A stretch of 64,000 nucleotides of DNA. Origin: Mangrovicoccus algicola. Lineage in GTDB: Bacteria; Pseudomonadota; Alphaproteobacteria; Rhodobacterales; Rhodobacteraceae. Below, piece by piece: positions 4,578-23,518 of this stretch (positions are counted from its first letter, which is position 1; the number at the start of each line of letters is the position of its first letter). Under the pieces are notes generated by a model. That model did not search any database. It was given only the letters and a program-made list of their open reading frames with translations, and was not told where the DNA came from. The position numbers and the translations under genes were made by a program. Location: NCBI RefSeq assembly GCF_014903745.1, contig NZ_JACVXA010000014.1:1-64000 (forward strand), in the 5' to 3' direction.

Positions 4578-4605
4578 CTGGTATCCTCCGTACGCCTTTT
4601 AATTA

Positions 4606-4620
4606 TGAAACGGCGTTCCG
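4606..4620. promoter_or_regulatory. KdgR-box-like operator upstream of the GH105-TRAP operon
   Basis: The sequence TGAAACGGCGTTCCG has the same 15-bp layout (TGAAA-N5-TTTCA type) as the perfect palindrome at 5606-5620, with two mismatches in the right arm. It sits 29 bp upstream of the GH105 start, inside the unit that also contains the divergent iclR-type gene. Known KdgR (IclR family) operators in enterobacteria follow the same TGAAAY...RTTTCA pattern, so it is a likely target of the adjacent regulator. Confidence 0.65.
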
Positions 4621-4782
4621 AAAATCAAGGAACCATAGTCTGTCACAAGTTGCAACCGAATTCTTCGCCCCGTTGCTTTGCCGAAAACCCATCTAAACCC
4701 ATTAGTTACAAGGTCAGTCTGGACAGGGGAGAAAATCTCTGCAAGAAATTCGAAACTGTATTCCACAATAATCGGGACAGCC

Positions 4783-5592: not shown

Positions 5593-5605
5593 CTCCGCCC
5601 ATTTA

Positions 5606-5620
5606 TGAAATAGAGTTTCA
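5606..5620. promoter_or_regulatory. KdgR-box-like operator upstream of the oligogalacturonate lyase
   Basis: TGAAATAGAGTTTCA, extended by flanking A and T to ATGAAA-N5-TTTCAT, is a perfect palindrome in an AT-rich stretch between the iclR-type gene and the PL22 gene. It matches the known KdgR operator pattern and is related to the copy at 4606-4620. The local pair suggests that the regulator encoded between them controls both units. Confidence 0.75.
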
Positions 5621-5681
5621 TTTTTATTGCGACTCAGTTCCGAAATCGTAATCTCCCTGCATCGTTCAAGAGGAGGAAACG

Positions 5682-7040: not shown

Positions 7041-8453
7041 CTACAGGCCCGTCGCCGCCAGCACCGCGATCCAGACCGACAGGATCGCCCCGCAGACCAG
7101 CGTGTAGGGCCCGTTCCAGACCAGCCCCACGCGCCGCGCCGAGACCTTGCCGAAATCCGCCACCAGCAGCGTCGAGGCGGTGAAGGGCGAGGTCGCCCCC
7201 GACAGCGCCCAGCCGCTGGTGATCGCCACGACCATCGCCGCCGGGGTGACGCCGATCGCCTCGGGCGCGGGCAGGATCGGGCCGATCATCGACACCGCCA
7301 GGATCGGGTTCATGCCGATCTGCCCGGTCAGCGGCACGATCCAGAACAGCGCCACCAGCAGGACCGGCGCCGAAATCGCGCCCAGATCGATGCCGCTGGC
7401 GGCCATCACCGGCGCCGCCAGATGCCCGCCCATCGTGCCGATGAAGGCCGCCATGACCAGAAGGACGGTCTGATCGCGCAGCCCCGGCATGTCCGACAGC
7501 GCGAAATGCCGGGCGCGGCTCCAGGCATGGCGCGCATCGGCGCGCCCGCCGGGCGCCTGGAAGGCCGTCCAGATCAGCGCGATGGCCGGCACGATGGCCA
7601 TGACCACGCCGACGATCCGCACCCCGGTCGCCAGGTGCAGCACCGCGGTCAGCCCCGCCAGCAGCCCCAGCAGCAGAAGAAGCGGCCTGAGCTGGCGCAG
7701 CCAGTCGCCCTCGGCCGGGCCGCGCGCGGGCGGCGGCACCGAGAGGCGAGGCTTGAAGATCGTGTCCAGCGCCCAGCCCACGCCGGTGAACACCGCCACC
7801 CCCGCCAGCGTATAGGGCAGCACCGCCGCCCAGTCGGCGCCCGGCACGATGCTCAGCGTGATCGCCGAGGCGAAGGACAGGGGCGACCAGGGCAGGGTCG
7901 AGACGAAGCCGCGCTGGATCGCGACCAGCATCCGGCGGATGCGGTGGCGGCGGATCTCGGGATCGGGTTCCTTGTTCGCCGCCTCGGTCGCCAGCGTCCC
8001 CAGGAGCGCGATGCCGCCATAGATCAGGATCAGCCCGAACAGGTGCCCCCCCAGCGTCAGCGCCAGATAGCGCCGGCCCGGCGGCTGACCGGCCAGGAAC
8101 CGGCCGCAGGCGACGATCGGGTCAGACCCGGTGGCGGCGGCGCGCATCGCGTTGATCGCGGTGAAGAAGGCGGCGATGAACCCCGCCTTGGTCAGGGCGG
8201 TCATCACCGTCGGGCGCCAGTCATCCTGGAAGGCCGCCGAGATCAGCACCAGCGCCAGGGCGATCGCCATGAAGGCGCGGCTGGTCCAGCTGATCCCCGG
8301 CCAGAACACCGCCCCCGCCGCCAGGGCGGCCCCGCCCGAGATCAGCGAGAAGACCGGGCTGCAGGCGAATTCCCCCAGGATGCCCGAGACCAGCGCCAGC
8401 GCCAGCAGGCCGCCCCCTGTCCGCGTGGGCCCGGCGGCAAGCGGTTTCACCAT
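7041..8453 (-). CDS. Multi-spanning permease of unrecognised specificity
   Basis: A 470-residue integral membrane protein with roughly 12 hydrophobic segments and a central soluble loop near residues 225-250 (PPPARGPAEGD). Two internally similar Gly/Ser-rich re-entrant-like stretches occur: LISGGAALAAG near the N-terminus and AITSGWALSGATSPFTA near residue 420. The second resembles substrate-binding hairpins of ion-coupled carboxylate or ion transporters. I cannot assign a family with confidence. It lies 137 nt downstream of an amidase on the same strand, with a small GC hairpin in the gap. It may be the last gene of the amidase operon and could import its substrate or export a product. Confidence 0.8.
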   Translation of the reverse strand: MVKPLAAGPTRTGGGLLALALVSGILGEFACSPVFSLISGGAALAAGAVFWPGISWTSRAFMAIALALVLISAAFQDDWRPTVMTALTKAGFIAAFFTAINAMRAAATGSDPIVACGRFLAGQPPGRRYLALTLGGHLFGLILIYGGIALLGTLATEAANKEPDPEIRRHRIRRMLVAIQRGFVSTLPWSPLSFASAITLSIVPGADWAAVLPYTLAGVAVFTGVGWALDTIFKPRLSVPPPARGPAEGDWLRQLRPLLLLLGLLAGLTAVLHLATGVRIVGVVMAIVPAIALIWTAFQAPGGRADARHAWSRARHFALSDMPGLRDQTVLLVMAAFIGTMGGHLAAPVMAASGIDLGAISAPVLLVALFWIVPLTGQIGMNPILAVSMIGPILPAPEAIGVTPAAMVVAITSGWALSGATSPFTASTLLVADFGKVSARRVGLVWNGPYTLVCGAILSVWIAVLAATGL

Positions 8454-8590: not shown

Positions 8591-10105
8591 TCAGTCGAAG
8601 CTGAGGAACCCCTCGGCCTCGGCGATCGGCGGCGCCGCCGCCAGCATCGCCAGGTCCGGCCCGCGCGGCGCCAGGTCGGGCAGCCCCGCGATCACCGCCT
8701 CGATCTCGGCGGCCACCGCCAGAAGCCGCCGGTCGTCATGGCGCCGACCGACGAGCTGCAGCCCGAAGGGCATGCCCTTCGCGTCGCGCCCGCAGGGGAT
8801 CGAGATGGAGGGATGCCCGGCGATGGTGGTCGCATAGGCCAGCGCCAGCCAGTGGAAATAGGTCTTGGTCGGCTGCCCGTCGATCTGCGCGGGATACAGT
8901 TCGCGCCAGGGCCGCGGGCTGACGGTGATCGCGGGCGAGACGAGGATGTCCCAGTCGCCGAAGAAGGCCTGCCAGCGGCGGTGATACTCGCCCTGCGCGA
9001 TCAGCGCGCGGGCCACGTCCTCACCGGAATAGCTGCGCCCCTCCAGCACGTTGTCGCGCACGTTCGGGCCGACATGATGCGGCGCCCGGTCCAGGAGCTC
9101 GGCATGGATGCCCAGGAAGGAGATGCCGCGCAGCACGCCGAAGATCCGGTCGGCATCGCGGCAGTCGGGCGCGGTTTCCTCCACCCGTCCCAGGAACGGG
9201 CCCAGCTGGCCCATGGCGTTGCGGAACTGGTCGCGGACGGTGGATTCGGTGGGGGCAAAGCCGAAATCCTCGGTCGCGGCGATCCGCAACCCCGACAGGT
9301 CCACCCGCGGCAGCGCCGCGAAACCGGCCGGATCCCAGGCGGTCCGGCCCTCGACCTCGACGGAGAAGGGATCGTCGCGGCCCGGACGCGACATCACCGA
9401 CAGCATCAGACCGGCATCGGCCACGCTGCGCGCCATCGGGCCGGAGGTCGACAGGGGCAGCAGCGCCGTCGCCCGCGCCTCGCCCGGCACCACGCCGGGG
9501 CTGGGGCGGAACCCCACCACGCCGCAATGCGCCGCCGGGTTGCGCAGCGACCCGCCCATGTCCGAGCCGGTCGCCAGCGGGGCATAGCCGCAGGCCAGCG
9601 CCACCGCCGAGCCGCCCGAGGACCCCGCGCAGGTCTTCGTCACGTCATGGGGATTGGCGGTGGTGCCATAGACGAGGTTGCGCGAATTGGCCCCCGCGCT
9701 CCATTCCGGGACATTGGTCTTGCCCATCGGCAGCGCGCCCGCCGCGGCCAGCTCCGCCACCGGCGCGCCGTCGGCTTCGGGCAGGTTGTCGCGATAGGCA
9801 GGCGATCCGAAGGTGGTGGGCAGCCCGGCCATGTCCTCCATGTCCTTCACCGCCAGCGGCAGGCCATGCAGCGCGCCCAGCGGACCGCCCGCGGCCACCG
9901 CCGCCTCGGCCGCCTTCGCCCCGTCGCGCAGCCGGTCGAAATCCCGCGCGGGCATGGCATTGACGGCATGGTCCAGCGTCTCGACCCGGGCGATGCAGGC
10001 CTCCGCCAGTTCCACCGGCGACAGGCGCCGCCGGGCGATCAGGCGCCGTGCCTCCAGGGCCGACAGGTCGGCGGGATCGGCGGGGGTCGGTGTCTGTCCG
10101 GTCAT
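8591..10105 (-). CDS. Amidase-signature hydrolase
   Basis: A 504-residue amidase signature family enzyme without a signal peptide. The Ser-cisSer-Lys triad is intact: Lys87 (LAVKD), Ser162 (AGSSGGS) and Ser186 (DMGGSLRNPA), with the 24-residue spacing between the two serines seen in well-studied members. It hydrolyses a carboxamide or related bond, substrate unknown. Its ATG overlaps the stop of the upstream gamma-glutamyltransferase-like gene by 4 nt, so the two are translationally coupled. A second amidase starts that operon. The family spans aliphatic amides, carbamates and peptide amides, so no symbol is given. Confidence 0.92.
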   Translation of the reverse strand: MTGQTPTPADPADLSALEARRLIARRRLSPVELAEACIARVETLDHAVNAMPARDFDRLRDGAKAAEAAVAAGGPLGALHGLPLAVKDMEDMAGLPTTFGSPAYRDNLPEADGAPVAELAAAGALPMGKTNVPEWSAGANSRNLVYGTTANPHDVTKTCAGSSGGSAVALACGYAPLATGSDMGGSLRNPAAHCGVVGFRPSPGVVPGEARATALLPLSTSGPMARSVADAGLMLSVMSRPGRDDPFSVEVEGRTAWDPAGFAALPRVDLSGLRIAATEDFGFAPTESTVRDQFRNAMGQLGPFLGRVEETAPDCRDADRIFGVLRGISFLGIHAELLDRAPHHVGPNVRDNVLEGRSYSGEDVARALIAQGEYHRRWQAFFGDWDILVSPAITVSPRPWRELYPAQIDGQPTKTYFHWLALAYATTIAGHPSISIPCGRDAKGMPFGLQLVGRRHDDRRLLAVAAEIEAVIAGLPDLAPRGPDLAMLAAAPPIAEAEGFLSFD

Positions 10106-11682
10106 GCGGTGTCTCCTTCCGCGATCGCGTCGCCCCAGGGCGACAGGGTTTCGGTGGTGCCGGAATTGCGCCCGGCCTCGCGCAGCACCGCCGCCGGGGC
10201 GGCGAAAGCGAAGGGAAAGGGCAGGCGTTTTGCCGTGGCAACCGGCCAGCGGGCCGACAGCGCCCCGGTCACCGGCCCGGCCAGGCGCTCATCGGCGACC
10301 ACCGGATCGCCGCCCGAGGCATCCAGCCGCGGCGCCTCCATCGCCTCCTGCAGCGTCGCGCCGGTCTCCACGAGCTGCGCCGCGATCTGCGCCACGGCGG
10401 GCATGATCTTGCGCCCGCCCGCCGCACCGAGGGCAAAGCGGCGGCCCGCCCCCTCGCCGATCACCGGGCAGACATTCATCAGGCAGCGCTTGCCCGCGCC
10501 CAGAGAATTGGGTTTTCCCTGTTCCGGATCGAACCACATGATGCCGTTATTCAGCAGCAGCCCCGTGGCGGGCGACACCGTGCGCGAGCCGAAGACCGAC
10601 AGCAGCGTCTGGGTCATCGACACCATGTTGCCCGCCCGGTCGACGACCGAGAAATGCGTTGTGCAGCCCGGCGCCCGGGCGGAGTCGTGATCGCCCATCT
10701 CCGCCAGCCGCCGCGCATAGGCGGCACGGATCGCGCCGGTGCGCGCCACATGGGCGGCCGGGGCGGCGGCATCGGCGGCGGCATATTCCGCCTGCCAGGC
10801 GCCCATCGCATCGGCCAGGGTCGGCCCGGCGGTCAGGCCGGGCACTGCCAGGATGCGGCCGTCGCGATAGGGGAAATCCAGCGGGTCTGACCATTCGGGG
10901 GCATAGCCGGCCATGTCCGCCGCCGTCAGGAACCCGCCCTTGGCGGTGACATCCGCGACCAGCGCCGCGGCGATGTCGCCCTCGTAGAAATCCCGCGCCC
11001 CGGCACTGGCCAGCCGGTCGAGCGTGGCGGCCATGCCCGACTGGTCGATCCGCCGGTCGGCCAGCGCGGTCCAGCCGAAGCTTTTCGGCCATTGCCCGTC
11101 ATCGAGGAACATCGCCGCCGCATCCGGGTCGCGCGACAGGTCCTGCGCCGAGGAGGCGATGACCAGCGCCGCGTACCAGTCGATCTCCATGCCGCGTTTC
11201 GCGTGGTCGATGGCCGGGGCCAGAAGCTCGGCCCAGGGCATCCGGCCGAACCGCTCATGCGCGGCCGCGATCCCCGCGACCGTGCCCGGCACCGCGACGG
11301 AACTGCCGCCCGCGATGTTGCGGTCCTCCACCACCGACTCCCAGGGGAAGAGGTCCGAGGCCTTGCCCGCCCCCGACAGGGGATAATGCGCGACATCGAG
11401 CGACTGCGACGCGCGCATGCCGTAGCTGAGCGCATGGCCGCGGCCCTCGTCCTCGCGCCACAGCATCATCGCGCCGCCGCCCATCGGCCCGGACATCCAG
11501 GGTTCGAGCACGCCGAGCACGAAGCTGGTGGCGACCGCGGCATCCACCGCGTCGCCCCCGGCCGCCAGGACGGCCGCCCCGGCCTCGGCAGCCAGCACAT
11601 GCTGGGCCGCGACCACGCCGCCCTCGACCGCGACCGCGCCGGGTTTCAGCGTGATCTGGCTGCGGGAAAAGGATCCTGCCAT
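10102..11682 (-). CDS. Gamma-glutamyltransferase-like Ntn hydrolase, cytoplasmic
   Basis: A 526-residue member of the gamma-glutamyltransferase family. The self-processing/catalytic threonine context is present: Thr341 in GCTTHFSVVD, followed by GNMVSMTQT and the LLLNNGIMWF loop. This predicts autocleavage into a large and a small chain. No signal peptide is seen, in contrast to the periplasmic glutathione-degrading enzymes, so a cytoplasmic acylase or gamma-glutamyl hydrolase role is more likely. I start at MAGSFSRS, 4 nt after the upstream amidase stop; the open frame extends 19 codons further into that gene. Placement between two amidases with near-overlapping junctions suggests one substrate attacked at two or three amide bonds. 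Confidence 0.88.
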   Translation of the reverse strand: MAGSFSRSQITLKPGAVAVEGGVVAAQHVLAAEAGAAVLAAGGDAVDAAVATSFVLGVLEPWMSGPMGGGAMMLWREDEGRGHALSYGMRASQSLDVAHYPLSGAGKASDLFPWESVVEDRNIAGGSSVAVPGTVAGIAAAHERFGRMPWAELLAPAIDHAKRGMEIDWYAALVIASSAQDLSRDPDAAAMFLDDGQWPKSFGWTALADRRIDQSGMAATLDRLASAGARDFYEGDIAAALVADVTAKGGFLTAADMAGYAPEWSDPLDFPYRDGRILAVPGLTAGPTLADAMGAWQAEYAAADAAAPAAHVARTGAIRAAYARRLAEMGDHDSARAPGCTTHFSVVDRAGNMVSMTQTLLSVFGSRTVSPATGLLLNNGIMWFDPEQGKPNSLGAGKRCLMNVCPVIGEGAGRRFALGAAGGRKIMPAVAQIAAQLVETGATLQEAMEAPRLDASGGDPVVADERLAGPVTGALSARWPVATAKRLPFPFAFAAPAAVLREAGRNSGTTETLSPWGDAIAEGDTA

Positions 11683-11686
11683 GGTC

Positions 11687-13111
11687 TCAGCCTCCGAAGC
11701 TCGTCGGGAAGGGCCGCATCGCGCCCCGCATCCCCTCATAGGCCCTTGCCATCCTCAGCGCACCCATGTCGTCGAACCGCTGCGCCGCGATCTGCAGCCC
11801 CAGCGGCACGCCGTTCGTGTCATAGCCGCAGGGCAGCGAGGAAACCGGCTGCTCGCTCATGTTGAAGGGGACGGAATAGCTGATATGCTCCATCCCCCGC
11901 GCCGGGTCATTGGTCGGATAGCCCCATTCCGCCGGGAAGCTGATATGCGGCGACAGGGGCGCCAGCACGAAGTCGAAGGGCTTCGTCGCGGCGATGGTGC
12001 GGCGGCGGATCTCGACGGTGGCGGAATAGGCGTCGAAGACCTGCGCCCCGGTCAGGGAGGCGCCGGGCGCGGCATATTCCAGGAACAGCGGCAGCACCTT
12101 CGCGCGCTGCGCCTCAGACAGCGCCGCGACATCCTTCGCCGCGCGCGCCAGCCAGAACGTGTCCAGCCCGGCCAGCAGATCCTGCGTCATCCAGGGATCC
12201 AGCGGCTCGACGATGGCGCCCGCCGCCTCGAACAGCTTCGCCGCCGCCTCGACCGGGGGGATCACCTGCGGGTCCACCGCCATGCCGCAGCCGGGCTGAA
12301 GCTGAAGCCCGATCCGCACGCCCGTCAGGTCCATGTCGAGATCCATCCAGTCGATCGCGGCGGGCGGCAGGTTGCGGTAGTCGCGCCCTTCGGGATCGGG
12401 ACGCGACAGCACCGCCATCATCAGCGCGGCATCCTCCACCGTGCGGGTCATCGGCCCGGCGCAGCGGCCCATATAGGGCGGATCGATATTGACCCGGCCG
12501 AGGCTGGGCTTCAGCCCCATCAGCCCGCACCAGGCAGCCGGGAACCGCACCGAGCCGCCGATATCCGTGCCCAGATGCAGCGGCCCGTAGCCCGCCGCGC
12601 CCCCGGCCCCCGCCCCGGCGGAGGAGCCGCCCGGGTTCATCGCCAGGTTCCAGGGGTTGCGCGTCAGATCATGCAGGCTGGACAGGCCCGAGGACATGGC
12701 GCCGAATTCCGGCATCGTCGTCTTGCCCAGGATCACCGCCCCCGCCTCGCGCATCCGCGCCGCGGGGGGCGCATCGGCGGCGGCAGGCACCGGGTCGGTG
12801 GCCGCGGTGCCGATCGGGCTGGGCGTGCCCCTGGTGGCGATGTTCTCCTTCAGCGTGGCGGGCACGCCGTCGATGCTGATCCCGTCCCGCTCCAGCGGGC
12901 TGCCCGCGCGCCAGCGCGCCTCCGAGGCGCGCGCCGCCTCGCGCGCGCCCTCCGGGTCGAACCGGTAGAAGGCGTGGATATGCGGTTCGCAATGCTCGAC
13001 CTGGGCGATGACCGCCTCGGTCACCTCGACCGGCGACAGCGTCCCGGCGCGGTAGGAGGCGACCAGGTCGGTCGCCGACATCTCATGCAGGGCTTGGGGG
13101 GTGGTGCTCAT
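11687..13111 (-). CDS. Amidase-signature hydrolase, first gene of operon
   Basis: A 474-residue amidase signature enzyme with Lys88 (TLKEN), Ser163 (NPGGSSAG) and Ser187 (DIGGSVRFPA) as the expected triad. No signal peptide is seen. It differs clearly from the second amidase of the operon (8591-10105) around the active site and in the C-terminal substrate region, so the pair is not a recent duplication. It begins the leftward operon amidase / GGT-like / amidase. A 232-bp region with several palindromes separates it from the divergent iclR-type gene. The substrate is unknown; genes for amide, ureide or gamma-glutamyl compound use are all possible. Confidence 0.92.
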   Translation of the reverse strand: MSTTPQALHEMSATDLVASYRAGTLSPVEVTEAVIAQVEHCEPHIHAFYRFDPEGAREAARASEARWRAGSPLERDGISIDGVPATLKENIATRGTPSPIGTAATDPVPAAADAPPAARMREAGAVILGKTTMPEFGAMSSGLSSLHDLTRNPWNLAMNPGGSSAGAGAGGAAGYGPLHLGTDIGGSVRFPAAWCGLMGLKPSLGRVNIDPPYMGRCAGPMTRTVEDAALMMAVLSRPDPEGRDYRNLPPAAIDWMDLDMDLTGVRIGLQLQPGCGMAVDPQVIPPVEAAAKLFEAAGAIVEPLDPWMTQDLLAGLDTFWLARAAKDVAALSEAQRAKVLPLFLEYAAPGASLTGAQVFDAYSATVEIRRRTIAATKPFDFVLAPLSPHISFPAEWGYPTNDPARGMEHISYSVPFNMSEQPVSSLPCGYDTNGVPLGLQIAAQRFDDMGALRMARAYEGMRGAMRPFPTSFGG

Positions 13112-13185: not shown

Positions 13186-13243
13186 TGTATTGATTGTTGA
13201 TACACTTTCATCGTACAGTGATTATCGTTGCCCGGTAAACGAT
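13186..13243. promoter_or_regulatory. Palindrome-rich divergent control region (amidase operon / iclR)
   Basis: Between the divergent amidase operon and the iclR-type gene there is an AT-rich island holding two perfect inverted repeats. One is TGTAT-N9-ATACA at 13186-13204; the other is ATCGTT-N8-AACGAT at 13224-13243. Their centres are about 38 bp apart. They are good candidates for operators of the adjacent IclR protein. The rest of 13112-13343 shows no gene. Confidence 0.5.
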
Positions 13244-13343: not shown

Positions 13344-14144
13344 ATGACCGGCTATGTCCCCCGCGGCCGCCCGCCCGAAATCCCCGAAGAGGGCGACCCG
13401 CTCTTCGTGCGCGCGGTCGGCCGCGCGGCGGCGGTGCTGTCGGCCTTTCACCAGGCCGAGCATCCGCTGAGCCTGACCGAGATCGCCCGCGCCGCCGATC
13501 TGGACCGATCCACCGCGCAACGGCTGGTGCACACGCTGCGCAAGCTGGGCTATATCACCCGCGACCGCCATGACCGCGGCTTCGTGCCGGGGCGGCGGAT
13601 CTATGACCACATCTTCGACGCGATGCGGCTGGACAGCCTGATCCAGCGCGCCGTGCCCTATCTTCTGGAACTGCGCTCGACGGTGAACGAACGCGTGGAC
13701 ATGTCGCTGCTGGACGACACGCGGCTGATCTACGTGTCGCGGCTTCAGCCCAAGCGCAAGGTGCTGCACGACCTGATGGTCGGCCTTTCCGTGCCGGTCT
13801 GTTCCACCTCGGGCGGCTGGGCGCTGCTGGCGCGCCTGCCCGAGGAAGAGGCGCGGGAAATCCTGGCCCGGTCGGAACCGCAAAGCCACACGCCGCGCAC
13901 CCTGACGGATCCCGCTGCGGTCATGGAACAGGTCGATATCGCCCGGGAACGCGGCTATGCCATTGCGATGGAGCAACTTCTGACAGGCGAAATCGGCATC
14001 GCCGCGGCGGTCACCGATGCATCCGGCCGACCCGTCGGCGGGGTCACGATCACCGCGCTTCTGTCGGACTGGACCCCCGAGGAATTCGAGCGCGCCATGG
14101 CACCGGCGCTGATGCAGACGGTGCGGGCGCTCAGCCGGTTCTGA
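13344..14144 (+). CDS. IclR-family regulator of the amidase region
   Basis: A 266-residue IclR regulator. The winged helix occupies about residues 22-80 (LSLTEIARAADLDRSTAQRL is its recognition region) and the effector domain about 95-265, with CSTSGGWALLARLP in the place of the usual TAxGKA motif. It is divergent from the amidase / GGT-like / amidase operon and is the obvious candidate to control it. Its 3-prime end overlaps the convergent M20 gene by 14 nt. A possible GTG/ATG 30 nt upstream lacks family similarity, so this start is kept. Confidence 0.88.
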   Translation: MTGYVPRGRPPEIPEEGDPLFVRAVGRAAAVLSAFHQAEHPLSLTEIARAADLDRSTAQRLVHTLRKLGYITRDRHDRGFVPGRRIYDHIFDAMRLDSLIQRAVPYLLELRSTVNERVDMSLLDDTRLIYVSRLQPKRKVLHDLMVGLSVPVCSTSGGWALLARLPEEEAREILARSEPQSHTPRTLTDPAAVMEQVDIARERGYAIAMEQLLTGEIGIAAAVTDASGRPVGGVTITALLSDWTPEEFERAMAPALMQTVRALSRF

Positions 14145-15444
14145 GCGCCTCCGCAGGTTCCAGGCCGCACCATTCGGCGATGAACAGCGCGATGGCCAGC
14201 GTCACGCGCCGCAGCGAGGCGATCTCCACCCATTCGTCGATGCCGTGCAGGACGCCCGCGACGGGACCGTAATTCAGCGCCGGGATCTGTTCGTAGAGAA
14301 CGTTCACCCGGGCATCCAGATAGGCGGGCATGACATGGCTGGGCAGGCTTTGCCCCGTCGTCGCCGCATGCGCGCGGGACAGGACCGTCTCGGCCGCGCT
14401 GCCCTCTTCCAGCGCGTATCCCTCGGCCATGAAGCCGTTCCAGACCAGGCGGGGCGGGTTCTGCGACAGGTAGGGATCGGCCTCGGCGAAATCGCGCAGG
14501 TGGCGCTCGATCTCGGCAGCGCATTGCGCGGCGGACCAGCCCGGCAGCAGCGAGATGCGGAAATCCACCGCCGCCGTGGCCGGCACCGAGGACGCCCATT
14601 CGCCGCCCTCGATCCGCCCGACATTGAGGTTCACGGGCTTCGCCAGACCGGCAAACAAGGGATGCTCGTGGCGCCGGTCATTCCAGATCCGTTCCAGCCC
14701 GCGCATGGCCTCGATCGTGCGGATGGCCGCGTCTATGGCGTTCTCGCCTTCGCCCATACGGCTGACATGACAGGGAATTCCGGAAAATTCGACCCGGAAC
14801 CAGATAACGCCGGTATTGGCCCGCACCAGGCTTTCCCCGGTCGGTTCGGGGATCAGTGCCGCATCGGCGCGATAGCCCGCGAGATGCATCATCATGGCGC
14901 CGTTGCCGGTGCTCTCCTCCTCCACGACCGAGGCCAGGTGCACCCGCGCAGCCGGCTGCCAGCCGCAGGCGCGCAGCGCATCCAGCGCGGCGATGGCGCA
15001 GGCCAGCCCGGATTTCATGTCCCCTGCCCCGCGCCCGTAGATGCGCCCGTCGCGGATCTCGGCGGCATAGGGCGGGCTGCTCCACAGCGCCTCGGGTCCG
15101 GTCGGCACCACGTCGACATGCCCCTGCAGGATCAGCGACCTGCCGGTTTCCTCGCGCGGCTGATGGGTGCCGATCACCACCGGCACCGTCGAATGCGCAT
15201 CGCTCCATTTTCCCGCGCCCGGATGCGCGGCAAGGGCCTGCCGGTTCGGGGGGACCCGGGCCATGTCCAGCCCGCGGCCCTCCAGTTCGGCGAAAAGCAG
15301 GGCCTGCACCCCCGCTTCCTGCCCGCGCTGCGACGCGTGGCCGACCATCTCGCGGGTCAGGGCGATCTGGCGGTCGAATCCCGCCTCCACCCCGGCAGAC
15401 AGGGCGGCGCGCAGGTCATCGGGCAGGGTCTGATGGAGCGTCAT
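14131..15444 (-). CDS. M20-family metallohydrolase (ArgE/DapE-like)
   Basis: A 437-residue zinc-dependent M20 hydrolase. Metal and catalytic motifs are LQGHVDVVP (His and Asp), GRGAGDMKSG (bridging Asp), VVEEESTGNG (catalytic Glu pair) and a distal His in the C-terminal domain. The family removes acyl groups from, or splits, small N-acyl amino acids and dipeptides. I start at MTLHQTLPDD, which has a GAGGAAG ribosome site; the open frame continues 80 codons upstream without M20 similarity. It is divergent from the dipeptide-type ABC operon and convergent with the iclR-type gene, sharing 14 nt with it. Confidence 0.88.
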   Translation of the reverse strand: MTLHQTLPDDLRAALSAGVEAGFDRQIALTREMVGHASQRGQEAGVQALLFAELEGRGLDMARVPPNRQALAAHPGAGKWSDAHSTVPVVIGTHQPREETGRSLILQGHVDVVPTGPEALWSSPPYAAEIRDGRIYGRGAGDMKSGLACAIAALDALRACGWQPAARVHLASVVEEESTGNGAMMMHLAGYRADAALIPEPTGESLVRANTGVIWFRVEFSGIPCHVSRMGEGENAIDAAIRTIEAMRGLERIWNDRRHEHPLFAGLAKPVNLNVGRIEGGEWASSVPATAAVDFRISLLPGWSAAQCAAEIERHLRDFAEADPYLSQNPPRLVWNGFMAEGYALEEGSAAETVLSRAHAATTGQSLPSHVMPAYLDARVNVLYEQIPALNYGPVAGVLHGIDEWVEIASLRRVTLAIALFIAEWCGLEPAEALRTG

Positions 15445-15600
15445 GCGGGATCTTCCTCGGCTGGAATGCTGCCGTGACACTGGGGCGATGGCCCCGCCAT
15501 GGTCAATTGCCCTGCCCTTGCGCGGTGGCCGCGGGGCGTGATGCGGCCCCGCCCGTCCGTTGCCGCCATGGCCGGGCCGAGACCGCGCCGGTATCTGCAC

Positions 15601-15626
15601 AAATTTTAGACATTTTGAGAAAATTT
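15601..15626. promoter_or_regulatory. AT-rich inverted repeat in the divergent M20 / ABC-transporter promoter region
   Basis: AAATTTT-N12-AAAATTT is a perfect inverted repeat and the only AT-rich patch in the 302-bp gap 15445-15746. It lies between the leftward M20 gene and the rightward peptide-type binding protein gene, so an operator or promoter element is likely. The rest of the gap shows no gene. A clear ribosome site (AGAGAGG) precedes the binding protein start. Confidence 0.45.
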
Positions 15627-15746
15627 CACCTCGAAGCTGGGTTTCACTTGGGTCCGGGCCCGCGACGTGCCGTTCTGGCGCCACCTTCCCCGGCCAGCGG
15701 GGAGCGCATCGAAGCGTCCGCGAGACGCCAACAGAGAGGTACGATC

Positions 15747-17333
15747 ATGACCGCCATTTGGAGTGGCCTGCGCAGCGGGCTTGCCGCGGCAACCGCCCTG
15801 ACGATGACCACCGTCCTTCCCGCCTTCGCCGAGACGACCATCACCGCGGTGATGCATTCGGGCCTGCGCGTGCTGGACCCGGTGATCACGACCGCGCATA
15901 TCACCCGCGACAACGCCTTCATGATCTTCGACACGCTGGTCGCGCTGGACGAGGATTTCGTCGTGCAGCCGCAGATGGCCTCCTTCGAGGTCTCCGAGGA
16001 CGGGCTGAGCTATACCTTCACCCTGCGCGACGGGCTGAAATGGCATGATGGCGGCGAGGTCACCCCGGCCGACTGCATCGCCTCGATGAAACGCTGGATG
16101 CAGCGCGACGGCGGCGGCCAGATGATCGAGGCCCGCATGGAAAGCCTGGAGGCCACCGGCGACAACAGCTTCGAGCTGACCCTGACCGAGCCCTTCCCCT
16201 ACACGCTGGAAGCCATGGCCAAGCCCTCGGGCCTGGCGCTGTTCATGATGCCCGAGCGGCTGGCCAGCACCCCGGCCAACGAACCCATCCCCGAGATGAT
16301 CGGCTCGGGTCCCTTCAAGTTCGTGCAGGACGAATTCCAGCCCGGCGTGAAGGTCGTCTACGAGAAGAACGAGGATTACGTCCCCGCGGAAGGTCCGCAA
16401 AGCTGGTTCGCCGGCGCCAAGGACGTCAAGGTCGACCGCGTCGAATGGGTGACGATGCCCGATGCGCAGACCTCGCTGAACGCGCTGATGAACGGCGAGA
16501 TCGACTTCCTCGAACAGGTTCCGGTCGATCTGCTGCCGCTGCTGGAAGGGATGCCGGGCCTGCAGAACCAGGTCCTGGCGCCGCTGGGCTATGTCACGAT
16601 CGGACGGATGAACTTCCTCCACCCTCCCTTCGACGATCCCAAGATCCGCCAGGCCGCCAAGCTGGCGCTGAGCCAGGAGGACGTTCTGACCGCGCTGATC
16701 GGCAATCCCGACTACTTCAAGGTCTGCGGCGCCATCTTCGGCTGCGACACCCCCTTCGAATTCTCCGACGGGTCCGAAAGCCTGACCTCCGGCGGCGATA
16801 TCGAGGCGGCCAAGGCGCTGCTGGAAGAGGCGGGCTATGACGGCACGCCGGTCGTGCTGATGCAGCCCACCGACGTGGTCACGCTGACCGCCCAGCCGAT
16901 CGTCGCGGCCCAGGCGCTGCGCGAGGCAGGCTTCACCGTCGACATGCAGCCGATGGACTGGCAGACCCTCGTCACCCGCCGCGCCAGCCAGGCCGACCCG
17001 GCCGATGGCGGCTGGAACCTGTTCTTCACCAACTGGATCGTGCCGGAAGTCTCGAACCCGCTGGCCAATATCATGCTGCCGGGCCGCGGCGACGATGCCT
17101 GGTTCGGCTGGCCGACCGACGAGACGATGAACGGGCTGCTGGACGACTTCGCCTCCGCCGCCGAGCTGGAGGACCAGAAGGCCGCCGCGCAGCAGATCCA
17201 GGCGCGGGTGATGGAGAACGTCAACTACATCCATCTCGGCCAGTACTTCAATCCCTCCGCCTGGAGCGACAGCCTGACCGGCATCACCGAAGCGCCCTTC
17301 CCGGTCTTCTGGGGCGTCGAGAAAGAGGGCTGA
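15747..17333 (+). CDS. ABC transporter periplasmic binding protein, dipeptide/oligopeptide family
   Basis: A 528-residue family-5 binding protein (DppA/OppA-like) with a Sec signal peptide ending at PAFA, about residue 28. Typical features are VSEDGLSYTFTLRDGLKWHD near residue 90 and the Trp/Asp-rich closing segment near residue 410. The long upstream open frame has no similarity; ATG 15747 has an AGAGAGG ribosome site and the signal peptide. It is the first gene of a six- or seven-gene rightward operon with permeases, a fused ATPase and three hydrolases. The ligand is not readable from sequence. The hydrolases suggest a small peptide or N-acylated amino compound. Confidence 0.92.
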   Translation: MTAIWSGLRSGLAAATALTMTTVLPAFAETTITAVMHSGLRVLDPVITTAHITRDNAFMIFDTLVALDEDFVVQPQMASFEVSEDGLSYTFTLRDGLKWHDGGEVTPADCIASMKRWMQRDGGGQMIEARMESLEATGDNSFELTLTEPFPYTLEAMAKPSGLALFMMPERLASTPANEPIPEMIGSGPFKFVQDEFQPGVKVVYEKNEDYVPAEGPQSWFAGAKDVKVDRVEWVTMPDAQTSLNALMNGEIDFLEQVPVDLLPLLEGMPGLQNQVLAPLGYVTIGRMNFLHPPFDDPKIRQAAKLALSQEDVLTALIGNPDYFKVCGAIFGCDTPFEFSDGSESLTSGGDIEAAKALLEEAGYDGTPVVLMQPTDVVTLTAQPIVAAQALREAGFTVDMQPMDWQTLVTRRASQADPADGGWNLFFTNWIVPEVSNPLANIMLPGRGDDAWFGWPTDETMNGLLDDFASAAELEDQKAAAQQIQARVMENVNYIHLGQYFNPSAWSDSLTGITEAPFPVFWGVEKEG

Positions 17334-17350
17334 GCCCGAACCGAACCAAG

Positions 17351-17397: not shown

Positions 17398-18339
17398 ATG
17401 CCCGTCTATTTCCTCCGCCGCGTTCTTGCCGCCATCCCGGTGATGCTGGTCGTGGCCGTCTTCGTCTTCCTTCTGCTGCGGCTGACGCCCGGCGACCCGG
17501 CCGCCGTTCTGGCCGGGGACATGGCGACCCCCGAACAGCTGGAACAGATCCGCGCCTCGCTGGGGCTGAACGATCCGCTCTATGTCCAGTTCCTGCGCTG
17601 GATGGGCGACCTGCTGCGCGGCGATTTCGGCACCTCGCTGATCTCCAACCAGCCGGTTCTGGACCTGGTCGCCGACCGGATGTGGCCGACCATCTGGATC
17701 GCGCTGATCACCATCACCCTGTCGGTGATCGTCGCCGTGCCCATGGGCGTCGTCGCCGCGTGGAAACACCGCTCCTGGATCGACCACCTGGTGATGACCT
17801 TCTCGGTGCTGGGCTTCTCGATCCCGGTCTTCGTCATCGGCTACCTGCTGATCAAGCTCTTCGCGCTGGATCTGGGCCTGCTGCCGGTGCAGGGCTATGT
17901 CGCCCCCTCCGAGGATCTGCCGGGCTTTGCCGCCCGCGCCGTCCTGCCCGCGCTGACGCTGGCCTCCATCTACATCGCGCTGATCGCCCGGATGACGCGG
18001 GCCAGCCTTCTGGACGTGCTGGGCGAGGACTATGTCCGCACCGCCCGCGCCAAGGGACTGGCCGAGCGCCGGGTGCTGTTCCGCCATGCGCTGCGCAATG
18101 CCGCCGTGCCGGTGATGACGGTGATCGGCACCGGCTTCGCCCTCCTGATCTCGGGCGTGGTCGTGACCGAGAGCGTCTACAACATCCCCGGCCTGGGCCG
18201 GCTGACCGTCGACAGCATCTTCGCCCGCGACTACCCGGTCATCCAGGCGCTGATCCTGCTGACATCGGGCATCTACGTGCTGGTCAACCTGGCAATCGAC
18301 CTGTCCTATTCCTTCCTCGATCCGCGGATCCGCTACTGA
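17398..18339 (+). CDS. Peptide-type ABC permease, DppB-like
   Basis: A 313-residue membrane permease with six predicted helices. The EAA loop is seen near residues 210-230 (YVRTARAKGLAERRVLFRHALRN), and the N-terminus (YFLRRVLAAIPVMLVV) is the standard DppB/OppB start. It forms the channel with the DppC-like partner, whose ATG overlaps this stop as TGATG. The operon order and the spacer hairpin upstream match a binding protein made in excess over the membrane parts. Confidence 0.93.
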   Translation: MPVYFLRRVLAAIPVMLVVAVFVFLLLRLTPGDPAAVLAGDMATPEQLEQIRASLGLNDPLYVQFLRWMGDLLRGDFGTSLISNQPVLDLVADRMWPTIWIALITITLSVIVAVPMGVVAAWKHRSWIDHLVMTFSVLGFSIPVFVIGYLLIKLFALDLGLLPVQGYVAPSEDLPGFAARAVLPALTLASIYIALIARMTRASLLDVLGEDYVRTARAKGLAERRVLFRHALRNAAVPVMTVIGTGFALLISGVVVTESVYNIPGLGRLTVDSIFARDYPVIQALILLTSGIYVLVNLAIDLSYSFLDPRIRY

Positions 18340-19208
18340 TGGCCGAGAACACCATGCGCGCAGCTTTTCCCCTTTCGACCCGCGCCCTCTTCTCCCGCAT
18401 CGGCATCGCGCCCTTGCTGGCGGGCCTGGTCCTGATCCTCATCATCCTCGCCGCGGTCTGCGCCCCCCTCGTGGCGCCGCATGACCCGATCTACCAGAAC
18501 CCGATCCAGCGGCTGAAACCGCCATCTGCCGAGTATCTCCTGGGCACCGACAATTACGGCCGCGACCTGCTGAGCCGGGTGATCTGGGGCGCCCGCGTCT
18601 CGCTGCTGATCGGGCTGGGCGTCACCGTCATGGCGGTGGTCATCGGCCTGGCCATCGGGCTGGTCTCGGGCTTCTTCCGCCTGGCCGACGCGGTCATCAT
18701 GCGGATCATGGACGGTCTGATGGCCATGCCCTCGGTCCTTCTGGCCATCGCCATCGTGTCGCTGATGGGCGCCTCGATCTGGACCGTCATGGCCGCGATC
18801 ACCATCCCCGAGATCCCCCGCGTCGTCCGGCTGGTGCGCTCCATCGTGCTGTCCGCGCGCGAGGAACCCTATGTCGAGGCGGCCATCTCGATGGGCACGT
18901 CGCTGCCGCGGGTGCTGTGGCGCCACCTGATGCCCAACACCTTCGCGCCGCTGACCGTGCAGGCGACCTATGTCTGCGCCTCCGCCATCCTGACCGAGGC
19001 GATCCTGTCCTTCCTCGGCGCGGGCGTCTCCACCGAGACCCCGACCTGGGGCAACATCATGGCCGAGGCGCGGATCTATTTCCGGCTGAAGCCCGAACTG
19101 ATCTTCTGGCCGGGCCTGGCGCTGTCCATGTGCATCCTGTCGATCAACCTGCTGGGCGACTGGGCGCGCGACGTCCTCGATCCCCGCATGGGCAAGAGGG
19201 AGTCCTGA
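18339..19208 (+). CDS. Peptide-type ABC permease, DppC-like
   Basis: A 289-residue permease with an N-terminal membrane anchor, the GTDNYGRDLLSRVIWGARVS signature typical of DppC/OppC, and an EAA loop near residues 185-205 (PYVEAAISMGTSLPRVLWRH). The start ATG overlaps the upstream TGA by one base, and the fused ATPase begins one base after this stop. Inner membrane; it pairs with the DppB-like protein. Confidence 0.93.
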   Translation: MAENTMRAAFPLSTRALFSRIGIAPLLAGLVLILIILAAVCAPLVAPHDPIYQNPIQRLKPPSAEYLLGTDNYGRDLLSRVIWGARVSLLIGLGVTVMAVVIGLAIGLVSGFFRLADAVIMRIMDGLMAMPSVLLAIAIVSLMGASIWTVMAAITIPEIPRVVRLVRSIVLSAREEPYVEAAISMGTSLPRVLWRHLMPNTFAPLTVQATYVCASAILTEAILSFLGAGVSTETPTWGNIMAEARIYFRLKPELIFWPGLALSMCILSINLLGDWARDVLDPRMGKRES

Positions 19209-19209: not shown

Positions 19210-20832
19210 ATGCCGGTTCTCGATATCCGCAACCTCACCGTCGCCATCGATGCCAAGGACGGCGCCTCCGTGGTCCGCGACATCTCCATCTCGATCGAGC
19301 CGGGCGAAACCGTCTGCCTGGTGGGCGAATCCGGCTCGGGGAAATCCGTCTCGTCGCTGGCGACGATGGGGCTTCTGCCCAAGGGCGCGCTGAAGGTCAC
19401 GGGCGGGGAAATCCTGCTCGATGGCGAAGACATGCTGAAACTGTCGCCCGCCGAGCTGCGCGACCGCCGCGCCACGCGCATGTCGATGATCTTCCAGGAA
19501 CCGATGACCGCGCTGAACCCGGTCATCAAGGTCGGCGACCAGATCGCCGAGGTGCTGGAGGCGCATACGAAACTGTCCAACGCGGAAAGCCATGCCCGCG
19601 TCATGGGTATCCTCGACCAGGTCGGCCTGCCCGATATCGAAAGGGTCGCGCGCAGCTATCCCCACCAGCTGTCGGGCGGCCAGCGGCAGAGGATCATGAT
19701 CGCCATGGCGCTGATCCTGGAACCGCGCCTGCTGATCGCGGACGAACCCACGACCGCGCTCGACGTCACCACGCAGCTGCAGATCCTGCGGCTGATCAAG
19801 GATCTGCAGCAGAAGCACGGCACGGCGGTTCTGTTCATCACCCATGACATGGGCGTCGTCGCCGAGATCGCCGACCGGGTCTATGTCATGAATCGCGGCG
19901 ACATGGTGGAAACCGGCAAGGTGATGGACATCCTCGCCGCGCCGAAGATGGACTATACCCGCCGCCTGCTCTCCTCGGTGCCCTCGCTGGTGCCGCGCCC
20001 TCCGCGGCCGGTGGCCAGCGAGAGGCTGGCGCTTCAGGTCAGCGAACTGGACAAGATCTACGGCGGCGGCGGATTCCTGTCGAAGGCGGCGACCACCCAT
20101 GCGGCCAAGGCCGTGTCGCTGGAACTGAAGGCCGGCCGCACGCTGGGCATCGTCGGTGAATCGGGCTCGGGCAAGTCCACCGTGGCGCGCTGCGTCATGC
20201 GGCTGATCGATCCCTCCGCGGGCGGGATCCGCGTTGGCGGGCAGGAGATCGCGGACCTGACCCCGCGCGGGCTGCACCCGTTCCGCAAGCGCCTGCAGAT
20301 GGTGTTCCAGGACCCCTACCGGTCGCTGAACCCGCGGCTGTCGATCGAGGAGTCGATCATCGAGGGGCCGATGAATTACGGCATGCCCCGCGCCGAGGCC
20401 GTGGCCAAGGCGGCGGAGCTGCTGGACCTCGTCGGCATGCCCGCGGGATCGGCGAAACGCTATCCGCACATGTTCTCGGGCGGGCAGCGCCAGCGCATCG
20501 CCATCGCCCGCGCCCTGGCGATGGAGCCCGAGCTGCTGGTCGCGGACGAAGCCGTCTCGGCCCTGGACGTGTCCGTGCAGGCGCAGGTGCTGGACCTTCT
20601 GACCGAGATCCAGGAACGCACCCGCATCGCCATCCTCTTCATCACCCATGACCTGCGCGTCGCGGCCCAGATCTGCGACGAGGTGGCGGTGATGAAACGC
20701 GGCGAGGTGGTCGAATACGGCCCGACCGCCGCCGTGCTGGGCGCGCCGCGCCACGACTATACGAAATCGCTTCTGGCCGCCGCGCCGGGCCGGGACTGGG
20801 ATTTCCCCAATTTCCGCCCCGTGGCTGCCTGA
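19210..20832 (+). CDS. Fused DppD-DppF-type ABC ATPase
   Basis: A 540-residue protein with two complete nucleotide-binding domains in one chain, where many bacteria use two genes. Domain 1 has Walker A GESGSGKS at 39-46, signature LSGGQRQRI and Walker B LLIADEP. Domain 2 has Walker A GESGSGKS near residue 316, signature FSGGQRQRI and Walker B ELLVADE. Each ends with the oligopeptide-type C-terminal extension. It powers the adjacent permease pair at the inner face of the membrane. It lies one base after the DppC-like stop, with M81 and M20 hydrolase genes downstream in the same direction. Confidence 0.94.
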   Translation: MPVLDIRNLTVAIDAKDGASVVRDISISIEPGETVCLVGESGSGKSVSSLATMGLLPKGALKVTGGEILLDGEDMLKLSPAELRDRRATRMSMIFQEPMTALNPVIKVGDQIAEVLEAHTKLSNAESHARVMGILDQVGLPDIERVARSYPHQLSGGQRQRIMIAMALILEPRLLIADEPTTALDVTTQLQILRLIKDLQQKHGTAVLFITHDMGVVAEIADRVYVMNRGDMVETGKVMDILAAPKMDYTRRLLSSVPSLVPRPPRPVASERLALQVSELDKIYGGGGFLSKAATTHAAKAVSLELKAGRTLGIVGESGSGKSTVARCVMRLIDPSAGGIRVGGQEIADLTPRGLHPFRKRLQMVFQDPYRSLNPRLSIEESIIEGPMNYGMPRAEAVAKAAELLDLVGMPAGSAKRYPHMFSGGQRQRIAIARALAMEPELLVADEAVSALDVSVQAQVLDLLTEIQERTRIAILFITHDLRVAAQICDEVAVMKRGEVVEYGPTAAVLGAPRHDYTKSLLAAAPGRDWDFPNFRPVAA

Positions 20833-20850: not shown

Positions 20851-22371
20851 GTGCCCCGTATCGCCATCGGCGGTTTCCTGCACGAAACCAATACCTTCGC
20901 GCCATCCCAGGCAAACTATCAGGATTTCGTCCATGGCGGCGGCGCAGGCCGGATGCTGCACGGGGCGGAGATCCTCGAGGAGCTGGCGGACGTCAATGCC
21001 GCCATCTCCGGCGCGATCCGCCACGGCCGCGCCGCGGGCTGGGACCTGGTGCCGACGATCTTCGCGGCCACCTCGCCCTCGGCCCATGTCACCTGCGATG
21101 CCTTCGAGAGGATCGCGGGCGACATGATCGACCGCATCGCCGCCGCCATGCCGCTGGACGGGGTGTTCCTCGACCTGCATGGCGCGATGGTCACCACCCA
21201 TCTGGATGACGGCGAGGGCGAATTGCTGGCGCGGCTGCGCGACCGGATCGGCCCGGACGTGCCGGTGGTGGTCTGCCTCGACCTGCACGCCAATGTCACC
21301 GCCAAGATGTTCGGCCATGCCGACCTTCTGGAAAGCTACCGCACCTATCCGCATGTCGACATGGCCGAGACCGGGCTGCGCGGCGCGGCCGCGCTGGAGC
21401 GGATGCTGGATGGCAGCCGCCCGGAAAAGGCGATGCGCACCCTGCCCTACCTGTCCGCCATCGCCTGGCAATGCACCTCTGCCGAACCGGCCAGGGGGCT
21501 CTATGCGCAGATGGAGGCTCTGGCGGGCGGCAGCCGCGAGATGAGCTTCAACATGGGTTTCCCGGCGGCGGATTTCCCCGAATGCCAGATGACGGTCCTG
21601 GCCTATGGCGCAGGCGCCGAGGCAGCCGCCGACGCGATGGCCCGCGCGGTGGAGGCGGCCGAGCCCGCGTTCCGCGGCCGGGTCTACAGCCCCGCGGAGG
21701 GCGTGGCGGAGGCCATGCGGCTTGCCGAAACCGCCGCCGCGCCGGTGGTGATCGCCGACACGCAGGACAATCCCGGCGCGGGCGCCGACAGCAACACCAC
21801 CGGCATGATCCGCGCCATGGCGGCAGCCGGGGCACGCGGTGCCATCGGCAACCTCTACGACCCCGCAGCCGCCTCCGCCGCGCATGAGGCCGGAACCGGC
21901 GCGGTGATCCGGCTGGCGCTTGGCGGGCAGTCGGGCGTGCCGGGCGATGCGCCCTTCGAGGCGGAGTTCACCGTCGAGGCGCTGTCGGACGGGGAATTCA
22001 CCGCCCATGGCCCCTATTACCGCGGCAAGAAGATGAGCATGGGCCCCTCCGCCTGCCTGCGGCTGGGGGATCTGCGCATCGCGGTGGTGTCCTCCAAGGC
22101 GCAGATGGCCGACCGCGCCATGTTCCGCCAGGTCGGCATCGCCCCCGAGGCGGAGCCGATCCTGATCGTGAAAAGTTCCGTCCATTTCCGCGCCGATTTC
22201 GAGCCGATCGCCGCGGCGCTGCTGACCTGCGCCGCGCCGGGCCCGATGGCCGTGGACCCCAAGGACCTGCCCTGGACGCGGCTGCGCCCGGGGATCCGGC
22301 TGGGCGCGATGGGCCCGGCCTTCGAACCAGACGACACCGACAGGAAGGAGACCGCACATGCCGGTCATTGA
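20851..22371 (+). CDS. M81-family metallopeptidase (MlrC-like)
   Basis: A 506-residue protein of the M81 / microcystin-degradation MlrC family. Likely zinc ligands and conserved motifs are GGFLHETNTF (His11), DLHGAMV and CLDLHANVT, with a C-terminal MlrC domain from about residue 300 (DTQDNPGAGADSNTTGM). Only a few members have been shown to cut linear peptides; most are encoded beside Dpp-type transporters and remain uncharacterised. It follows the ATPase gene by 18 nt with an AAGGAG ribosome site and overlaps the next M20 gene by 14 nt. No signal peptide is seen, so it would act on the imported ligand. Confidence 0.88.
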   Translation: MPRIAIGGFLHETNTFAPSQANYQDFVHGGGAGRMLHGAEILEELADVNAAISGAIRHGRAAGWDLVPTIFAATSPSAHVTCDAFERIAGDMIDRIAAAMPLDGVFLDLHGAMVTTHLDDGEGELLARLRDRIGPDVPVVVCLDLHANVTAKMFGHADLLESYRTYPHVDMAETGLRGAAALERMLDGSRPEKAMRTLPYLSAIAWQCTSAEPARGLYAQMEALAGGSREMSFNMGFPAADFPECQMTVLAYGAGAEAAADAMARAVEAAEPAFRGRVYSPAEGVAEAMRLAETAAAPVVIADTQDNPGAGADSNTTGMIRAMAAAGARGAIGNLYDPAAASAAHEAGTGAVIRLALGGQSGVPGDAPFEAEFTVEALSDGEFTAHGPYYRGKKMSMGPSACLRLGDLRIAVVSSKAQMADRAMFRQVGIAPEAEPILIVKSSVHFRADFEPIAAALLTCAAPGPMAVDPKDLPWTRLRPGIRLGAMGPAFEPDDTDRKETAHAGH

Positions 22372-23518
22372 GGGCATCGCGGCATTCGCCGATGATCTGA
22401 CCGCGATCCGCCGCGACATCCACGAACATCCCGAACTGGGATTCCAGGAGGTCCGCACCTCCGCCATCGTGGCGGAGAAGCTGAAGAGCTGGGGCATCGA
22501 GGTGACGACCGGGCTGGGCAAGACCGGCGTGGTCGGCGTGCTGAAGGGCAGCCGCCCGGGCCGCACCATCGGGCTGCGCGCCGACATGGACGCGCTGCCG
22601 ATCCACGAGGAGACCAACCTGCCCTTCGCCTCCAAGACCCCGGGCGTCATGCATGCATGCGGCCATGACGGGCACACCACCATGCTTCTCGGCGCGGCGC
22701 GCTACCTGTCGGAGAACCCCGATTTCGCCGGCACCGCCGTTTTCATCTTCCAGCCCGCCGAGGAAGGCCTGGGCGGCGCGCGCGCGATGCTGGCCGACGG
22801 GCTGTTCGAGCAGTTCCCCTGCGACGAGATCTACGGCATGCACAACGCCCCCCATCACCAGCCCGACCTGGTGCAGGTGAAGAAGGGCCCGGCCATGGCC
22901 GGTTCGGATTTCTTCGACATCCGCATCACCGGCCGCGGCAGCCACGGCGCGCGCCCGGAGGATTCGAAGGACCCGGTCGTCATCGCCACCGCGCTGGTCC
23001 AGCAGATCCAGACGATCGTCGCGCGCAACGTGCCGCCCACCAGCCCGGCCGTCGTTTCCGTCACCAAGATCCACGCGGGCGACGCCTATAACGTGGTGCC
23101 CAACACCGCGGAACTCGGCGGCACGATCCGCTTCTTCGACACCGCGACGGGGGTGCTGATCTCCGAGCGGCTGCGCGCCCTCTGCGCCGGGATCGCCGCC
23201 GCCTACGAGGTCGAGATCGCGGTCGACATCCGCAACACCTTCGACGTGCTGGTCAATGACGATACCCTGGCCGAGGCCGTCCTTGCCGCCTCCGGTCCGG
23301 TCGTGGGCCAGGCGATGACCGGGCTGACCGAGGAACTGGTGATGGGCTCGGAGGATTTCGCCGACATGCTGCGCGTCATTCCCGGCGCCTATTGCACCAT
23401 CGGCCATTCCGGCGGCATCCCGGTGCACAATCCGGGCTTCACCCTCGATGACGCGATCCTGCCCGTGGGCGCGTCGATCTATGCAAATCTCGTGACCCAG
23501 AGGGGCGCCGCAGCATGA
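22358..23518 (+). CDS. M20D amidohydrolase (hippurate-hydrolase-like)
   Basis: A 386-residue M20D peptidase-like amidohydrolase. The metal-binding cysteine and histidines lie in HACGHDGH (Cys101, His103, His106), the catalytic acid in PAEEG, and further ligands in MHNAPH and the C-terminal MGSEDF. Family members remove N-acyl groups from amino acids (hippurate, indole-acetyl amino acids, N-acetyl-diaminopimelate). Cytoplasmic. The start overlaps the M81 gene by 14 nt and the end overlaps the next M20 gene by 4 nt. Confidence 0.92.
   Translation: MPVIEGIAAFADDLTAIRRDIHEHPELGFQEVRTSAIVAEKLKSWGIEVTTGLGKTGVVGVLKGSRPGRTIGLRADMDALPIHEETNLPFASKTPGVMHACGHDGHTTMLLGAARYLSENPDFAGTAVFIFQPAEEGLGGARAMLADGLFEQFPCDEIYGMHNAPHHQPDLVQVKKGPAMAGSDFFDIRITGRGSHGARPEDSKDPVVIATALVQQIQTIVARNVPPTSPAVVSVTKIHAGDAYNVVPNTAELGGTIRFFDTATGVLISERLRALCAGIAAAYEVEIAVDIRNTFDVLVNDDTLAEAVLAASGPVVGQAMTGLTEELVMGSEDFADMLRVIPGAYCTIGHSGGIPVHNPGFTLDDAILPVGASIYANLVTQRGAAA

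Follow-up and report, generated by a model that had tools for sequence, protein, structure and literature searches.

We analyzed a stretch of 64,000 nucleotides (nt) from Mangrovicoccus algicola (contig NZ_JACVXA010000014.1, positions 1 to 64,000; hereafter the window), in which the genes at 8591-13111 encode two amidase-signature enzymes that enclose a relative of gamma-glutamyltransferase (GGT), an N-terminal nucleophile (Ntn) hydrolase by fold. All three genes are read from the minus strand and follow one another in the order AmiA, GGT-fold gene, AmiB:

11687..13111, minus strand: AmiA, amidase-signature hydrolase (PF01425; NCBIfam PRK07042 at 699 bits against a cut-off of 458; triad K88/S163/S187)
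10102..11682, minus strand: GGT-fold Thr Ntn-hydrolase, 526 aa (PF01019; nucleophile T341, second Thr T359, Gly-Gly at 422-423)
8591..10105, minus strand: AmiB, amidase-signature hydrolase (PF01425; nearest NCBIfam model PRK07486, below its cut-off; triad K87/S162/S186)

These open reading frames, with their strand and coordinates, are as first read, and the Pfam families agree (Amidase PF01425 at 278 and 255 bits, G_glu_transpept PF01019 at 300 bits). The coupled junctions described in the first-pass annotation were also borne out: the AmiA stop at 11687-11689 is separated by a 4-nt gap from the ATG of the GGT-fold gene at 11682, and positions 10102-10105 (ATGA) are common to the stop of that gene and the start of AmiB, giving a 4-nt overlap. 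The Lys-Ser-Ser triad is intact in each amidase, and because AmiA and AmiB share only 31% identity, they are not recent duplicates, as had been proposed. The central protein carries T341 within the motif GCTTHF and lacks a hydrophobic signal peptide at its N-terminus, which is consistent with the cytoplasmic, Thr-nucleophile enzyme that had been described.

The GGT-fold protein retains the catalytic residues of its family and has lost the gamma-glutamyl pocket. The gamma-glutamyl-binding residues of E. coli GGT, which we take from established structures to be R114, N411, Q430, D433, S462, and S463, correspond in the window to G88, L361, G380, W383, M402, and N403 (alignment with the E. coli and B. 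licheniformis GGTs). In 115/115 subfamily sequences, five of the six (R114, N411, Q430, D433, and S463) have given way to other residues, and in 112 of the 115 so has S462; T391, T409, G483, and G484, equivalent to T341, T359, and G422-G423 of the window, are retained in all 115. Because 80 contig loci had been picked by motifs that partly overlap these residues, a recount was made with the 35 sequences obtained by similarity search only; the same five binding residues were replaced and the catalytic four retained in 35/35. As an internal control, the separate canonical GGT of the same genome (C126) has R, E, E, D, S, and S at the six positions. On TIGR00066, the curated GGT equivalog, the window protein scored 229.4 bits, short of the cut-off of 357.85. 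Its AlphaFold2 model (pLDDT 88, pTM 0.91) best matched 2i3o, a GGT-related protein of Thermoplasma, in a fold search (TM-score 0.83/0.86), with TM-scores of 0.72-0.80 against full-length GGT-family precursors and 0.75-0.77 against 6j3a/6j3i, structures of the LmbA/Ant6 class of GGT homologs. Three further GGT-fold paralogs, on contigs C74, C132, and C57 of this genome (L171-L173), are of another type, none canonical-looking, with S at the T409 position and R at that of Q430.

Set beside GGT (PF01019/TIGR00066), the window enzyme therefore shares the fold, the Thr nucleophile, the second Thr, and the Gly-Gly oxyanion loop; unlike GGT, it has every recognition position replaced, carries Cys just ahead of the nucleophile, lacks a signal peptide, and scores under the TIGR00066 cut-off. 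The "GGT-like" label of the first-pass annotation holds for the fold and fails beyond it, since the gamma-glutamyl-binding residues are replaced. True gamma-glutamyl catabolism, with gamma-glutamyl amides or peptides as GGT substrates and the other amides left to the amidases, is suggested by the retained fold and catalytic residues and by the nearest solved sequences, which are GGTs. However, the subfamily-wide loss of the pocket, the low TIGR00066 score, the canonical GGT elsewhere in the genome, and the missing signal peptide make it very unlikely; identity as a true GGT was rejected on the pocket residues and the TIGR00066 score. The protein would likely cleave itself before T341 into a Thr-nucleophile Ntn-hydrolase and, because its acyl pocket differs from those of gamma-glutamyl enzymes, is predicted to cut an acyl-amide bond other than gamma-glutamyl. 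The usual name of "gamma-glutamyltransferase" is thus probably wrong for this relative.

Several known systems resemble the window enzyme or its pairing with amidases. Nylon-oligomer hydrolases pair an amidase-signature enzyme (NylA) with a Thr Ntn-hydrolase (NylC) in amide breakdown, as here, although NylC belongs outside the GGT family. The hpx clusters combine HpxW, which has a GGT fold, with an amidase-signature protein. An hpxWXYZ-like pathway for oxamate or ureide nitrogen, in which a GGT-fold amidohydrolase and an amidase-signature enzyme would attack small nitrogen-rich amides, resembles the triplet both in having a GGT fold with a non-gamma-glutamyl substrate and in its clustering. 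The product of hpxW is named oxamate amidohydrolase (PMC12625717). The window enzyme is nevertheless distant from HpxW (5hft; 48 bits versus 155 for B. licheniformis GGT), AmiB reaches only 213-214 bits on AtzE models with cut-offs of 426-461, the surroundings of the GGT showed no purine or ureide genes, and the companions are Dpp/Opp-type importers and M20 and M81 hydrolases. Identity with HpxW was rejected for its distance in sequence and the lack of an AtzE-type partner, and a pathway of the hpx kind appears most improbable. LmbA and Ant6, GGT homologs that cleave a C-C bond (PMC5519988), likewise turn the GGT fold to another reaction; unlike the window enzyme, they belong to actinobacterial antibiotic biosynthesis and have Asp before the Thr.

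The distribution of the three genes was surveyed across 296 genomes from the same family, with GGT-fold relatives counted at E ≤ 1e-60, and in a scan of 84,980 species. A GGT-fold relative occurs in 40/296 family genomes, AmiB orthologs (≥59% identity) in 10/296, and AmiA orthologs (≥70% identity) in 3/296, all three within this gene set. The scan returned at least 584 GGT-fold relatives (candidate loci), of which the best 80 were fetched. The neighborhoods of 118 relatives were examined through tblastn-based neighbor tables, and counts refer to 110 non-redundant loci; because many loci end at contig edges, these counts are lower bounds.

The neighborhood search for amidase-GGT-amidase triplets that had been suggested as a check was run, and the full triplet was found in a same-genus genome (L039), in Poseidonocella sp. 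HB161398 (L090), and in Falsirhodobacter sp. alg1 (L091), whose GGT-fold proteins are 83%, 84%, and 80% identical to that of the window, respectively. Among the loci examined it is restricted to the window, its genus, and these two organisms; more than one strain therefore carries it. The AmiB/GGT-fold overlap is again 4 nt in L090, and the junctions of L091 are a 2-nt gap and a 4-nt overlap. The opposing explanation, that three promiscuous hydrolases without a common substrate were joined by chance or shared regulation, draws on the exchangeability of AmiA and on AmiB being found without a GGT. Against it, order and tight junctions are retained across genera at about 80% protein identity, and AmiB is present in 10/10 members of the clade to which the window belongs in the GGT tree (SH-aLRT 100). 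We consider this explanation unlikely: the arrangement is beyond chance, and AmiA, AmiB, and the GGT-fold enzyme very probably serve one pathway, given an order and junctions found in at least two genera and partners conserved in relatives. Of the earlier proposal that a single substrate carries several amide or gamma-glutamyl bonds, the shared pathway is upheld by order, junctions, and partners, and the gamma-glutamyl bond is not, the residues that would bind it being absent across the subfamily.

The triplet is one arm of a larger divergent locus with an IclR-type regulator, whose remaining features are as follows:

7041..8453, minus strand: polytopic membrane protein, 470 aa, downstream of AmiB (present in L039 and L090, missing in L091)
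13186..13204, no strand: candidate operator TGTATTGATTGTTGATACA, with the inverted repeat GTAT-N9-ATAC, in the divergent promoter of AmiA and IclR
13344..14144, plus strand: IclR-family regulator, divergent from AmiA (same place in L039, L090, and L091)
14131..15444, minus strand: M20_1, ArgE/DapE-type deacylase (PRK06837, 581 bits against 376)
15747..17333, plus strand: solute-binding protein (SBP) of the Dpp/Opp class (NCBIfam GsiB, NikA, and Opp4A, all below cut-off)
17398..18339, plus strand: DppB/OppB-type permease
18339..19208, plus strand: DppC/OppC-type permease
19210..20832, plus strand: fused DppD-DppF-type ATPase
20851..22371, plus strand: M81 metallopeptidase, MlrC-like (PF07364 and PF07171)
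22358..23518, plus strand: M20_2, M20 amidohydrolase (TIGR01891, above cut-off)
23515..24651, plus strand: M20_3, M20/M25/M40 hydrolase (PRK07473, 625 bits against 386)

The SBP, two permeases, and two ATPase domains stand in one operon (15747-20832) and make up a Dpp/Opp-type importer. We conclude that the functional unit of the window runs from 8591 to about 24651. It is like known Dpp/Opp peptide-utilization operons with M20 peptidases in holding importer, regulator, and cytoplasmic hydrolases at one locus, and unlike them in a hydrolase arm made of a GGT-fold enzyme and two amidase-signature enzymes. The palindrome GTATTGATTGTTGATAC in the AmiA-IclR promoter is identical in L039 and L090, and L091 has GTAT...ATAC with another spacer; the element, retained in all four loci, overlaps a sigma-70-like -35 box of the IclR gene at 13197 in a promoter scan. 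It resembles what an IclR operator would look like. We infer that the two arms are co-regulated. M20_1 is present in L039 and L090 and absent between the IclR and SBP genes of L091, whose divergent layout matches that of the window almost exactly (importer-MlrC-M20_2, IclR, AmiA-GGT-AmiB). The M81 protein was considered as a microcystinase MlrC, with a role in microcystin degradation, and rejected: it scores 153.5 bits against the NF041767 cut-off of 999 and can be assigned to the M81 family only. The membrane protein at 7041-8453 matched nothing in NCBIfam or, even at E = 1, in Pfam; it is probably co-transcribed with AmiB, within the genus only.

On either side lie genes of other kinds. The region 634-7010, adjoining the triplet locus, encodes a TRAP transporter (DctPQM), a GH88 hydrolase, an IclR regulator, and an oligogalacturonate-lyase-like beta-propeller protein (PF14583), and is probably a locus for uptake and degradation of unsaturated uronides. 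Just past the M20 genes, 24654-30061 holds a nitrilase/CN-hydrolase gene and a complete LivKHMGF-type importer, whose SBP is weakly urea-like (UrtA, 84 bits, below cut-off); this gene order is kept in the same-genus genome (L088). At 30848-33506, nadB (L-aspartate oxidase) adjoins nadA (quinolinate synthase).

Relatives of the GGT-fold gene show what its steady companions are. Both Dpp/Opp permeases lie within 9 kb of it in at least 76 of the 110 loci, another amide hydrolase in at least 87 (AmiB in 16), and an M20 hydrolase of the PRK07079 type in at least 62; as a small control, a Dpp/Opp importer was found near one of five other GGT-family loci of the window's genome. The order IclR / SBP-PermB-PermC-ATP-ATP-GGT-M20 recurs in dozens of genera. 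In six loci (L053, L055, L058, L060, L148, and L166, of which L055 and L166 have identical GGTs and are probably one organism), MlrC-SBP-PermB-PermC-ATP-M20_2-M20_3-GGT(-AmiB) forms a single operon, whose genes share 40-74% identity with their counterparts at 13344-24651; a divergent IclR gene lies alongside wherever the fetched stretch was long enough. The triplet is accordingly not the natural unit that it had been taken for: the GGT-fold gene is tied far more often to a Dpp/Opp importer and M20/M81 hydrolases, and the wider unit comprises this gene, the importer, and varying hydrolases, with AmiA as an exchangeable part.

Some relatives depart from these patterns. In a sister branch of the subfamily (L066-L075), Dpp operons include an SDR and a NodB-type polysaccharide deacetylase and no amidases. 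In Betaproteobacteria (L123, L129, L133, L135, L138, L157, L159, and L167), an amidase-signature gene of a third kind converges on the GGT-fold gene, and Bug/TctC-type binding proteins lie nearby. L124, labeled Bacillus subtilis SK6B4, has a proteobacterial-type operon, and the metagenome-assembled genomes labeled Bordetella parapertussis (L135 and L157) are similarly doubtful; all three are probably mislabeled or contaminated assemblies.

Breakdown or detoxification of a natural product or antibiotic, such as side-chain removal from a beta-lactam or lipopeptide by a cephalosporin-acylase-like GGT homolog together with the amidases, was also considered because the structural neighbors include 2nlz (an entry named cephalosporin acylase) and LmbA-type C-C-cleaving homologs (PMC5519988). 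Yet the GGT-fold gene is widespread among free-living Proteobacteria of sea and soil, its association with importers and IclR-type regulators resembles that of nutrient-catabolism genes, and no resistance or efflux genes were seen traveling with it. We give this possibility little weight.

A lead to the substrate comes from sister lineages. In the 10-member clade of the window, the Sulfitobacter and Cohaesibacter members have the operon importer-GGT-M20-(TSUP)-DsdA-AmiB-RidA-DadA-like. Enzymes of D-amino-acid metabolism thus share the operon in the sister loci L093-L096 and L114; the Sulfitobacter locus L092 and the locus of the window have none. One DsdA representative of the five loci scored 438 bits on PRK02991 (cut-off 246) and 360 on TIGR02035 (cut-off 368); the DadA-like protein falls below the cut-off of its model, and its D-specificity is only putative. 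At more distant AmiB loci, a DadA-like gene adjoins AmiB in L081, L108, L111, and L118, and DsdA is present in L079. DsdA homologs are rare, occurring in 6/296 family genomes.

Taken together, we consider it on balance probable that the locus is a cassette, controlled by IclR, that takes up and hydrolyzes small amides or peptides, with the triplet as its intracellular hydrolase arm. The gene content, the linkage across relatives, the residue pattern of the subfamily, and the conservation of the promoter palindrome are direct computational results. The importer would bring in a small peptide-like or amide compound, and the cytoplasmic M81 enzyme, three M20 enzymes, AmiA, AmiB, and GGT-fold enzyme would break it down to free amino acids and ammonia, a direction that we infer. 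The GGT-fold protein, once cleaved before T341, would cut its acyl-amide bond, and AmiB would probably make the final or penultimate cut; in the sister lineages, the AmiB product appears to feed D-amino-acid breakdown by D-serine ammonia-lyase (DsdA), a D-amino-acid dehydrogenase-like protein (DadA-like), and RidA. Searches of the open literature found no described GGT-amidase-Dpp cluster, in keeping with the initial remark that no defined pathway with this order was known.

Several observations weigh against this scheme. The AmiB orthologs of L080-L084 are located away from any GGT. Both the amidase-signature and the M20 families are promiscuous, and Dpp operons often recruit their members; a common location is therefore no proof of a common substrate. 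A Cys precedes the nucleophile in the window and in nearly all members, where known GGT-type sites have Glu, Gln, or Asp. Finally, the window genome has no DsdA and no M20_4 ortholog (best match 28%), and its DadA-like gene lies elsewhere; because of this, the hint of D-amino acids, taken from sister clades, may not apply here. The window lineage may have exchanged the M20 and DsdA steps for AmiA and the M81/M20 set. The identity of the substrate is a guess, and the leading one, itself tentative, is a compound containing D-amino acids.

It is a still more doubtful proposition, though one worth stating, that the subfamily (NNG[IM]MWFDP ... L-x-N) constitutes an undescribed Ntn-hydrolase class, probably annotated as "gamma-glutamyltransferase" in hundreds of Proteobacteria, which with AmiB forms a pathway importing amides or peptides that contain D-amino acids and freeing the latter. 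For the subfamily as a whole (at least 584 candidate loci), that label would mislead, since the catalytic residues are kept and the pocket behind the name is lost. The partnership of a peptide importer with exchangeable amide hydrolases provides a testable uptake-and-hydrolysis module that is common in marine Alphaproteobacteria. The link to D-serine ammonia-lyase points to amides or peptides of D-amino acids as its substrates, and carriers of such a module matter for the turnover of dissolved organic nitrogen.

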